DNA of 64,000 nt, taken from positions 930,001-994,000 of the forward strand of contig NZ_RXOE01000001.1 of assembly GCF_003965815.1 (NCBI RefSeq), in the 5' to 3' direction. Made by a program: the position numbers and the translations under genes. This DNA is from Variovorax gossypii (GTDB taxonomy: Bacteria > Pseudomonadota > Gammaproteobacteria > Burkholderiales > Burkholderiaceae_C). Numbering within the stretch: the first letter of the stretch is position 1; the number at the start of each line of letters is the position of its first letter. The notes beneath the pieces are model-generated. The model was not told the DNA's origin. It ran no database searches and was given only the letters and a program-made list of their open reading frames with translations. Below are positions 4,155-53,508 of this stretch, in pieces.

Positions 4155-4250
4155 CCCCCAGGCTTCGCGCACTTCGTGTCGCTACGCCCACCCCCTCGAA
4201 GGGGGCAACACCAGCGGCCCGGCAAAGCCGGTTCCGCGGTGTTCCACGAA
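4155..4250 (+). repeat. Dispersed palindromic repeat, copy A
   Basis: This 96-bp intergenic segment between cysD and cysN matches the reverse complement of 32687-32780 over its full length with a modest number of mismatches. Both contain a G/C palindrome (CCCCCTcgaAGGGGG here) followed by CAACACC and a GCCGGTTCC block. It looks like the REP-like intergenic repeats common in Comamonadaceae. It lies inside an operon, so it may act as an RNA stem affecting mRNA stability rather than as a terminator. Confidence 0.75.
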
Positions 4251-15264: not shown

Positions 15265-15463
15265 GCAAGTTCCTCTCCATTTTTTCTTCCTGCTCGCTTA
15301 TCGGCATGCGCTCCCGTTTCTTCTGTTGGTCGTTCTTCTGCTCGCGACGATTCTCGCCCCGCCCCTCCTCGCCCCCGGGTTTTCCCTGCCCTGCAAAGGC
15401 ACGCCTGCCATTGCGGCTTCCCGGCAGCGGTAAACTCCGGCCCGCGCCGCGGGTTCCCGGGGC

Positions 15464-15554
15464 GCACTTGCTAGGGGTGCTGGGCGGCTTGCCGACCGGC
15501 TGAGAAAGTCCCTTTGAACCTGATTGAGGTAATCCTCGCGCAGGGAAGCTGGTC
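15464..15554 (+). ncRNA. TPP riboswitch (THI element)
   Basis: The conserved blocks appear in order: AGGGGTGC (15473-15480), GGCTGAGA (from 15498), the CCCTTTGAACCTGA block (from 15510), GGTAATCC and GCGCAGGGAAG. Thiamine pyrophosphate binding to this element normally shuts off thiamine genes. It lies upstream of cytX and the wider thi locus. A TAAACT -10-like box at 15431-15436 could start the leader. Boundaries are good to a few bases. Confidence 0.93.
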
Positions 15555-15556
15555 CG

Positions 15557-15594
15557 GTGGCGTCTCACGCCTTCTCGCGTGAAAGCCGCGCCAC
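15557..15594 (+). promoter_or_regulatory. Hairpin downstream of the TPP aptamer (expression platform candidate)
   Basis: GTGGCG (15557-15562) pairs with CGCCAC (15589-15594) and TCACGC (15565-15570) with GCGTGA (15577-15582), giving a long stem. No U-run follows, so it does not look like an intrinsic terminator; a translational or Rho-dependent mechanism is more likely. Confidence 0.5.
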
Positions 15595-23086: not shown

Positions 23087-23162
23087 TCCTCGATAGCTCA
23101 GTCGGTAGAGCGCCGGACTGTTAATCCGTAGGTCCCTGGTTCGAGCCCAGGTCGAGGAGCCA
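23087..23162 (+). tRNA. tRNA-Asn (GUU), copy 1
   Basis: The 76-nt cloverleaf includes encoded CCA: acceptor TCCTCGA/TCGAGGA, D-arm GCTC/GAGC, anticodon loop CTGTTAA with GTT, and T-arm CCTGG-TTCGAGC-CCAGG. A promoter fits upstream: TTGAAA at 23046-23051, 18-bp spacer, TATAAT at 23070-23075. Confidence 0.97.
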
Positions 23163-23337: not shown

Positions 23338-23413
23338 TCCTCGATAGCTCAGTCGGTAGAGCGCCGGACTGTTAATCCGTAGGTCCCTGGTTCGAGCCCA
23401 GGTCGAGGAGCCA
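23338..23413 (+). tRNA. tRNA-Asn (GUU), copy 2
   Basis: Identical to the first copy over all 76 nt. TATAAT at 23321-23326 serves as its own -10 box, with no clear -35 sequence. The identity extends from 23328 to 23431 against 23077-23180. Confidence 0.97.
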
Positions 23414-32686: not shown

Positions 32687-32780
32687 TTCGCGGAACACCG
32701 AGGAACCGGCGTTGCCGGGCCTCAGGTGTTGCCCCCGGAAGGGGGTTGGCGAAGCGACACGAAGTGCGCGAAGCCTGGGG
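32687..32780 (-). repeat. Dispersed palindromic repeat, copy B
   Basis: Reverse-complement match to 4155-4250, with core GCCCCCggaaGGGGG. It lies just after the htrA stop on the htrA strand, where a stem could protect or end the transcript. Confidence 0.75.
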
Positions 32781-42953: not shown

Positions 42954-43150
42954 CGTGGTCCTCTTATGCTGATCCCCGGCGTGTGCTCGGGCCTGCCTGA
43001 TCTGTCGTGGGTGCGCGAAAACAAGCTGTGCACTATAGGGTTTCCGGCTGGTTTTGTGGCGCCGTGGAATGTCGGCCGAACCCTTTTGGCGGTGTCGGCG
43101 GCACGCGATTTTCGCCCACTGGATCGGAATTTGCGAAGCCGTGTATACCT

Positions 43151-43912
43151 ATGCCCATGCGACAACTGCCTTGGCTCGAACCCGGAGATGCCCTGCCCGA
43201 CCCCGCCTCGGCCTGGGGCGTGGCCGACCCGGTGCCCGGCCTGCTGGCCGCGGGTGGCGCGCTCGACGTCGATACTTTGATGCAGGCCTATGGCAACTGC
43301 GTCTTCCCCTGGTTCAGCGAAGACCAGCCCATCCTCTGGTGGAGCCCGGACCCGCGCATGGTGCTGCGGACGGCCGACTTCAAGCTGCATCGCTCGCTTC
43401 GCAAGACCCTCCTGCGCTTCATCGAGACGCCTGGATGCGAGGTGCGCATCGACCATGACTTCGCGGCGGTCATCAAGGCCTGCTCGAGCTCGCCGCGGGT
43501 GGGCCAGTCGGGCACCTGGATCGTGCCGGACATGGTGAAGGCCTATACGGATTTGCACCGCGCCGGCCACGCCCACAGCGTGGAGACGTGGATCGACGGC
43601 GAACTGGCGGGCGGCCTCTACTGCGTCGGGCTGGGCCGCGCGGTGTTCGGCGAGTCGATGTTCACCCGCCGGCCGGACGCGTCGAAGATTGCCTTGGCCG
43701 CGCTGGTGTCGCTCTGCCGCCACTACGGGGTGCAGATGATCGACTGCCAGCAGAACACGGCCCACCTCGCCAGCCTCGGCGCTCGCGAAATGGCCCGCAA
43801 GCGCTTCGTCTCCCACGTCGCCGGGGCACGCCGGCAAGAGGGCCCACGGTGGCGTTTCGACCCCGTATACTGGTCTGAACTCCTTTCCGCGCGATCTCCT
43901 TTCCCGACGTGA
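43151..43912 (+). CDS. aat: Leucyl/phenylalanyl-tRNA-protein transferase
   Basis: Adds Leu or Phe from tRNA to N-terminal Lys/Arg of proteins, marking them for ClpS/ClpAP. The 253-aa product has the signature [21 protein letters not shown] and [22 protein letters not shown] 43151 or 43157 are the possible starts, with no ribosome site; the mRNA may be leaderless. Its stop overlaps the bpt start (GTGA), so the two N-end rule transferases are coupled. Confidence 0.93.
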
Positions 43913-44742
43913 CGCACCTCAAGGATCTTCCGCTTCACACGCTGCAGTTCTACGCAACTGCGCCCTACCCCTGCAGCTACCTGCCGGACCGGCAGGCCCG
44001 CTCGCAAGTGGCCACGCCCAGCCACCTGATCCACAACGACGCCTACTCCGACCTGGTGCTCAGCGGCTTCCGGCGCAGCGGGATGTTCACCTACCGGCCC
44101 TATTGCGACGGTTGCCGTGCCTGCATTCCGCTGCGCGTGCTGGCCAACGACTTCCGGCCCAACCGCAGCCAGCGCCGCGCGCTGAAGCAGCATGCCGACC
44201 TGCAGGCGCGCGTGCTCAAGCTGTGCTTCATGCCGGAGCACTATCAGCTCTACCTGCGCTACCAGAACGGCCGCCATGCCGGCGGCGGCATGGATCACGA
44301 CAGCATCGACCAGTACACCCAGTTCCTGCTGCAGAGCCGCGTCAACTCTCGGCTGGTGGAGTTTCGCGAAACGCTGCCCGACGGCAGCGCGGGCGCGCTG
44401 CGGATGGTGTCGATCCTCGACGTGCTCAACGACGGCATCTCGGCCGTCTACACCTTCTACGAGCCCGACACCCGCGTAGCGCCGGGCCGCCCCAAGCAAG
44501 CGGACGCCCCCCTGGAGGGGCAGCGAGAGCACGCAGTGCCGAGCGTGGGGGCCTCATCCACCGGCTACGGCACCTACAGCGTGCTCTGGCAGATCGAGCA
44601 GGCCCGCAAGCTGGGGCTGCCGCATGTCTACCTCGGGTACTGGATCGAGCACAGCCCGAAGATGAACTACAAGGCTCGTTTTTCCCCTCACGAAGTGTTG
44701 TTGGATGGCCGCTGGCAGGCGCCAGGCGATTTCACAAGGTAA
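43909..44742 (+). CDS. bpt: Aspartate/glutamate leucyltransferase with in-frame repeat insertion
   Basis: Transfers Leu to N-terminal Asp/Glu in the bacterial N-end rule. Family motifs: [17 protein letters not shown], the cysteine-rich [10 protein letters not shown], and the end [21 protein letters not shown]. The 277 aa exceed the usual 240-250 because residues about 190-217 come from a dispersed palindromic repeat read in frame (from about 44480 to 44560). The insert sits between YTFYEPD and [11 protein letters not shown], normally nearly contiguous. The start is GTG, overlapping the aat stop. Confidence 0.92.
44484..44556 (+). repeat. Palindromic repeat inside bpt, copy C
   Basis: GCCCCCctggAGGGGCAGCGA followed by GCACGCAGTGC and AGCGTGGGGG shares the layout of copies A and B (G/C palindrome, AGCGA, AGTGC, GGGG end) but is more diverged. 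It has no stop codon in the bpt frame. Confidence 0.65.
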
Positions 44743-53401: not shown

Positions 53402-53432
53402 GTTTGCGTGACTCCTCTTTTCGCCGCCCCCC

Positions 53433-53454
53433 CCCGCGCACGGTAATGCGCGGG
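53433..53454 (-). promoter_or_regulatory. Hairpin and C9 tract between ilvB and ilvN
   Basis: CCCGCGCA and TGCGCGGG form a perfect 8-bp stem with loop cggtaa; it abuts a run of nine C residues (53427-53435). Inside the operon it could pause polymerase or mark a processing site; no U-run follows. Confidence 0.55.
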
Positions 53455-53508
53455 CTCGGCGGGCAATAGATTCGTCAGTAAAGAGTTGAGCGAATGTCGT
53501 TCCGCGGA

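Follow-up and report, generated by a model that had tools for sequence, protein, structure and literature searches.

The best-known palindromic repeats within conserved genes are those of Rickettsia, and explanations for them often appeal to reduced genomes and weak selection. Intragenic repetitive extragenic palindromic sequences (REPs) have been reported for Thauera, O. terrae and others (PMC3733652), and target duplication has been reported for several enterobacterial miniature inverted-repeat transposable elements, or MITEs (PMC2229807). Here we describe an insert in the bpt gene of Variovorax gossypii, which lies in a 64,000-nucleotide stretch of contig NZ_RXOE01000001.1 (positions 930,001 to 994,000; hereafter the window). 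Bpt is an aminoacyl-tRNA-protein transferase of the ATE/Bpt family, and the insert in its gene is very probably a copy of a non-autonomous mobile hairpin element of roughly 80-90 nt that is found across the family Burkholderiaceae. About a fifth of the copies of this element that we examined lie in frame within genes, of which many are conserved.

The bpt insert and its empty sites

Both ATE domains, ATE_N and ATE_C, are matched in the bpt product (Pfam), and the best curated family model, NCBIfam NF002341, aligns to it in two stretches, the first of which stops at residue 189. An alignment of 30 Variovorax bpt genes shows that the gene carries an insert of 28 codons, residues 189-216, close to the excess of about 28 residues that the initial annotation had placed at residues 190-217, and within a few nucleotides of the position that it had given (44476-44560; Table 1). 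We found a bpt match in 97 of the 100 Variovorax genomes searched, two of which read as truncated genes (G010, with a match to residue 119, and G069) and are not among the 95 that are informative. The insert is present in 14/95, all of which match residues 1-277, and absent in 81/95. In the 81 genomes that lack it, the best bpt match stops at residue 187-191, and among the second matches listed the alignment resumes at residue 214-219 on adjoining bases. At the DNA level the empty site, which we read in 16 of the 81 (L100, L104 and L115 were skipped), is mostly GAYACN joined directly to AGYGCNGGC, encoding ..YEPDTSAGYGTYS... In a collection of named strains the insert is found in 5/80 bpt orthologues (L039-L043: Variovorax sp. 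679, OV700, CF313 and Root411, and V. paradoxus MEDvA23); it is missing from the remaining 75, which come from Variovorax, Xenophilus, Ramlibacter, Polaromonas and others (for three of them the judgment is by match length only). Human ATE1, the single solved homologue whose alignment was inspected, has no insert at this position either. The segments on the two sides are therefore normally adjacent and the insert keeps the frame, as had been claimed from the sequence of the window.

The best other copy in the V. gossypii genome was found by BLAST with the bpt region at E=1.5e-13 over 79 query bases. With a profile model, R1, built from seven copies, we detected 13 copies of the element in this genome at E<0.01, bpt included. 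The insert is thus not universal among relatives and the element is present elsewhere in the genome, and together with the empty and filled sites this bears out the proposal that a dispersed palindromic repeat landed in a coding region. In this family the first hairpin (hairpin 1), whose loop GCCGGGCCGCCCCAA is nearly invariant, is followed by the palindrome CCCCCTCGGGGGG, the hairpin CACGAAGTG and, at the end, GGGGG. This layout is the same in all 173 copies listed, the list being made up of those copies with at most two mismatches in the loop region plus a CCCC/GGGG hairpin (one copy from the V. gossypii genome, L127, was dropped).

Table 1. Coordinates, in the window, of the bpt gene, its insert and the parts of the element copy.
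Feature	Position	Strand	Basis or remark
bpt, ATE/Bpt-family aminoacyl-tRNA-protein transferase gene carrying the insert	43909..44742	+	Open reading frame, GTG start at 43909, 277 aa; Pfam PF04376 and PF04377; NCBIfam NF002341
84-nt in-frame insert, residues 189-216	44473..44556	+	Lacking in 81 of the 95 informative genomes of Variovorax; edges known to within a few nt
bpt copy of the dispersed element	44472..44553	+	BLAST and profile; model R1 match 44474-44551
Hairpin 1, 5' arm CCGCGTAGC	44472..44480	+	RNA fold pairs outer CCGC and inner GC with the 3' arm
Hairpin 1 loop GCCGGGCCGCCCCAA	44481..44495	+	Most conserved part of the family
Hairpin 1, 3' arm GCAAGCGG	44496..44503	+	RNA fold
Second G/C palindrome, common form CCCCCTCGGGGGG	44506..44521	+	Altered in the bpt copy
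Third small hairpin GCAC-GCA-GTGC, common form CACGAAGTG	44529..44539	+	Copy comparison
GGGGGCC end of the element	44547..44553	+	Copy comparison

The AlphaFold model of the bpt product is weak (mean pLDDT, the predicted local distance difference test score, 60.8; pTM, the predicted template modelling score, 0.66), and Foldseek with this model ranks ATE1 first (E 5.7e-8). Residues 189-216 have pLDDT<50 and are located between a strand (176-184) and a helix (215-235), so in this model they are likely a flexible surface loop. Of the surface loop that the initial annotation had proposed, the flexibility is plausible, and the model is too weak to carry a claim of solvent exposure.

Copies across the family and inside other genes

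With R1 at E<=1e-4, we found 1-48 copies per genome in 19/19 Variovorax genomes (the genome with a single copy is 62% complete) and 0 copies in 12 genomes from other families of the same order. At E<=1e-6 there are copies in 60 of the 90 genera sampled in the family, Variovorax included, and some genomes have at least 52. We analyzed a sample of copies taken from the best-scoring matches rather than a census, and it includes some sites twice, from two genomes (RecQ, RecJ, HutH).

The initial annotation had tied the bpt palindrome to two intergenic repeats of the window, at 4155-4250 and 32687-32780. The layout is indeed common to all three, but close kinship is not, because these two are members of a second subfamily that is more uniform and has a different hairpin 1; R1 reaches its members only at E about 0.04-1, so the kinship lies in layout with weak similarity. 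The 4155 copy is found at no fewer than 40 listed places including itself, the 39 others having 89-96% identity, and the 32687 copy aligns with it, yet is absent among the 40 matches listed.

A copy was counted as coding if one frame was the best on both flanks and open through the element, using codon statistics trained on the window and applied to the other genera too. The search for further coding insertions that had been recommended was productive: 23 of the 116 distinct Variovorax copies are in frame, as are 16/57 from other genera (L371 discounted), and 0/30 copies of the second subfamily pass the same test. The weak cases are L264 and L285 in Variovorax, with one weak flank, and L371, L322, L312 and both L318 copies in the other genera. 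Carriers recognized by Pfam include an AMP-binding ligase, an ABC ATPase, a Mur ligase, IlvD/Edd, RecJ, RecQ, a CobQ-like protein, a FemAB-like protein and a luciferase-like monooxygenase, and those recognized by NCBIfam include an FAD-dependent oxidoreductase, HutH, RecQ, DapC, PurL and PurK. UvrA (a partial sequence) and PgmG have NCBIfam matches below the cut-off, and the names SsuD, Mpl and M16 peptidase were assigned by eye. One luciferase-like monooxygenase gene (L269:159-1673) has two in-frame copies.

To 15 of the 23 coding Variovorax copies we applied a joined-flank search (bpt was done apart, and L252, L259, L264, both copies of L269, L270 and L285 were left out), and for 15/15 the joined flanks correspond to an uninterrupted orthologous stretch in at least one of six genomes. 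Net inserts at the tested coding sites are 66-93 nt and are multiples of three, because the test requires an open frame. Coding copies occur on either strand, and the 23 in Variovorax use four of the six frames (10, 5, 4 and 4 copies). No target motif was obvious by eye in the empty coding sites compared. Five genomes (L237 and L259 from Variovorax; L310, L359 and L368 from other genera) have the element at one shared position in recQ, immediately ahead of the CGNCDNC motif, and this site is empty in five other Variovorax genomes searched. The bpt copy is one visible member of a broad class, the protein-coding mobile hairpins of this family, and the in-frame copies apparently add to their host proteins a peptide that is tolerated.

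Two or three copies spaced 81-86 nt apart form head-to-tail arrays at L188, L196, L267, L273, L318, L370 and L371. The L318 array is itself in frame within a gene and occupies the position of the copy in the FemAB-like L253. Rfam gave no match over the element, in the window at gathering scores or at 8 copy loci at E up to 5. Elsewhere in the window it recognizes a TPP (thiamine pyrophosphate) riboswitch (15463-15563), an ilvH leader RNA (53409-53476) and two tRNAs with identical scores (23087-23159 and 23338-23410). The open reading frame directly upstream of bpt, at 43007-43912, reads like a leucyl/phenylalanyl transferase gene, aat, and we take the two to be an aat-bpt pair.

Arrival, paired stems and fate of the insert

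Copies whose junctions we compared sit between a stop codon and a start codon. At 7/11 junctions an ATGA stop/start overlap is found on both sides of the element and is single in the empty relative (by eye); two further junctions have a CAT..TCAG stretch twice, one is unclear, and at one the relative has no ATGA (a twelfth, L227, was not compared with an empty relative). ATGA on both sides has the look of a target duplication by which neither gene is damaged, although selection that preserves the stop and start codons may also enrich for this pattern. We suggest that insertion would duplicate a few target bases, so that both genes at the junction would survive, and that inside genes a copy would survive, as an added flexible peptide, only where its net length is a multiple of three and the place is permissive.

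At some junctions the outer stem pairs overlap host start codons (by eye). In one orientation, the end of the element puts GGAGG or GGGAGG a few bases before the ATG of the next gene (L121, L180-L183 and similar; by eye), and the element may thereby supply a ribosome site and sequester it in hairpin 1. The variable 5' arm was considered as target sequence and rejected, since the AT-rich arm pair of L248 is absent from its empty site, which means that the arms are not simply target-derived. The V. gossypii genome has one Y1_Tnp gene, at G000:C7:729369-729704 (L119), which is not flanked by the element.

Outside the subgroup to which the bpt copy belongs, which has the 3' arm GCAAGC, the loop of hairpin 1 is kept while the two arms of its stem vary together between copies. 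In the 123 different arm pairs counted, with the GCAAGC group left out, 818/984 hairpin 1 positions are Watson-Crick, compared to a mean of 499.8 and a maximum of 544 with shuffled 3' arms and 264-385 when the arms are slid by 1-3. Of the remaining positions, a fraction of 0.199 are G-T pairs, versus 0.18 shuffled, a slight excess that was as high in 63/2000 shuffles. At the HutH and RecJ sites, two genomes each have different, mostly paired stems at the same site. Because G-T pairs are only slightly enriched, paired stem change seems most simply a DNA-level process, either repair of the palindrome by template switching or the action of a transposase that recognizes hairpin shape, and judged from these comparisons this would fit somewhat better than selection on RNA. 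We tentatively propose, as a picture that may well need revision, that the protein-coding mobile hairpins of free-living Burkholderiaceae form one family-wide class in which many copies have the first stem rewritten in pairs by template switching or a shape-reading transposase, stems thus being exchanged around a fixed loop and tail, even inside genes such as recJ and hutH.

The bpt copy itself folds no better than shuffled sequence, as DNA (z +0.84 and +1.12) or as RNA (z +0.37 and +0.51), and the same is true of six further copies of this type folded as RNA (z -1.60 to +1.30). Copies of its subgroup, by eye, pair via two inner bases plus a shifted outer pair. We therefore dropped folding energy as support for the bpt palindrome on which the initial annotation had relied. 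The intergenic copies 4155 and 32687 fold well below shuffled energy (z -3.8).

In the bpt insert the ratio of nonsynonymous to synonymous substitution rates (dN/dS) is 0.86, versus 0.07 in the flanks (13 carriers; with L022, which was left out, 0.67 versus 0.07), which argues that the inserted peptide is tolerated rather than maintained. The low flank value points to strong purifying selection on the rest of the gene in the carriers. The carriers are scattered: they need six changes on the bpt flank tree, at least four of them forced by well-supported branches. They are clustered nonetheless, with a mean of 10.3 changes when shuffled and 1/500 shuffles as low. Their junctions agree, with CCGCG on the left in 13/14 and TCCA before a GGN codon on the right in 14/14. 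Private single-base variants were tried as proof of one origin and rejected, as they are not common to all carriers and some are found in other copies, so the case for a single origin rests on the shared junctions. Identical junctions argue for one insertion, and a site-specific hot spot would look alike. We believe that there was probably one bpt insertion within Variovorax, followed by near-neutral drift of the protein and by loss or recombination of alleles that made its presence patchy. Allele recombination and loss, as in the empty L036, which has two extra codons at the site and branches among the carriers, would explain the scatter.

Several observations weigh against a mobile element that entered bpt once and then drifted. 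Fourfold sites differ less in the insert, 95/1129 (0.084), than in the flanks (about 0.25), and insert distances do not track flank distances (r 0.11; 1301/5000 permutations as high), and neutral drift of one old insertion predicts neither. The subgroup of the bpt copy, omitted from the main count, has no covariation (26/80 versus 26.2 shuffled, 10 arm pairs). The RecQ site is common to five genomes of four genera and could be one old insertion or the result of repeated hits. No duplicated ATGA was seen at 4/11 junctions, and no duplication was established at coding sites. Finally, the autonomous parent was sought among Y1_Tnp genes, and no convincing copy of the element was found beside 19 Y1_Tnp loci (about 1.5 kb of flanks, R1; one match at E 0.63). 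One to three such genes are present in 14/15 other genomes searched, element-rich and element-free alike, and with gene presence unlinked to copy number in these 15 genomes the REP-associated tyrosine transposase (RAYT) is not supported as the mover.

Two other explanations keep a minor share of probability. One is that the DNA or RNA hairpin itself is selected, through attenuation, mRNA stability or translation coupling, and that coding copies are kept for structure and not for the peptide. We consider this unlikely, even though slow fourfold change in the bpt insert recurs in the RecQ insert (0-2 of 17-20 sites per pair, versus 0.14-0.40 in the flanks), stems change in pairs over the family and differ yet stay mostly paired at the HutH and RecJ sites, G-T pairs are slightly enriched, and many copies are placed tightly between stop and start codon. 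What speaks against it is that neither the bpt copy nor six further ones of this type fold better than shuffles, that several bpt carriers have changed palindromes without visible compensation, and that both orientations are found.

The other sees in the bpt site, as in the RecQ site, a hot spot that took several independent insertions. This has a similarly small chance in our judgment: the carriers, clustered as they are, do not form one clade, the distances of insert and flanks are unlinked, the RecQ element recurs at one place in different genera, and the seemingly private insert bases are neither common to all bpt carriers nor confined to them, but nearly all carriers share junction bases on both sides, whereas spacers next to the ATG differ between the other sites listed.

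It is far less likely that the insert is a domesticated loop, as the initial annotation had it, retained since the peptide helps Bpt in binding a substrate or partner. The 14 genomes do retain it and the frame is open in all, even in G099, where it is 5 codons shorter. However, the enzyme needs an open frame anyway, the inserted residues vary widely among carriers, the carriers are scattered on the gene tree, and the dN/dS of the insert is far above that of the flanks. An ordinary lineage-specific codon insertion, or a chance GC-rich coding sequence unrelated to repeats, can be dismissed: the genome is GC-rich and short G/C palindromes are common, but neither would give the other copy in the same genome at its low E value or one layout in all listed copies.

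Comparison with known systems

We noticed no description of this element in our searches of openly licensed papers. The initial annotation had called it REP-like, and the family of REPs with GTAG/CGTC tags (PMC3733652) is similar in that its members are palindromic, many lie between co-directional genes and some are within genes for DNA repair (uvrA and recB, for example); free-living species, Thauera among them, have them too. Those REPs are described there as 20-40 bp long, whereas our element is about 80-90 nt with three hairpins, and Variovorax, Burkholderia and Acidovorax are absent from the main text of that paper. Among the 169 of the 173 copies that we scored, GTAG is found at 1 left end and CGTC at 12, and at 0 and 5 right ends, respectively, with 0-9 for the reverse complements, so there is no regular tag. 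REPs with a RAYT transposase, as described in PMC2817692, are also dispersed palindromes, but no RAYT-type gene stands beside a copy of our element at the 19 Y1_Tnp loci. By these tests the element belongs neither to the GTAG/CGTC REPs nor to a RAYT system, and calling it a REP in the strict sense is not supported.

The enterobacterial MITEs ERIC/RU-1 and YPAL/RU-2 are small and mobile too, and are described as forming in-frame fusions with genes (PMC2229807). Our element is unlike MITEs in its ends, as in the 169 copies scored the outer 10 nt are complementary at 7/10 positions at most (8 or more in 0/169). Template-switch mutation, which makes and repairs hairpins (PMC8794818), is a possible mutational origin of the paired stem changes; in that work it was studied in RNA genes, and here the changes are in a dispersed element that also lies inside protein genes. 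Paired stem change around a fixed loop makes this a clean case for asking whether mutation bias or selection is the source of compensatory change.

The Rickettsia palindromic elements, as described in PMC2229807 and PMC10969869, come closest, being short palindromic repeats that are found between genes and in frame in many unrelated conserved genes, where they are tolerated. The likeness that we see is in the way of working, by description. The Rickettsia elements are given as 105-146 bp, compared to a net 66-93 nt for ours, which is found in free-living, GC-rich Burkholderiaceae, uses four frames on both strands and has a stem that changes in pairs between copies. The same habit is frequent here in free-living soil bacteria with large genomes, in genes of the purine, lysine and DNA-repair pathways. 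Empty and filled alleles from their close relatives can serve as natural experiments on the tolerance of a folded enzyme.
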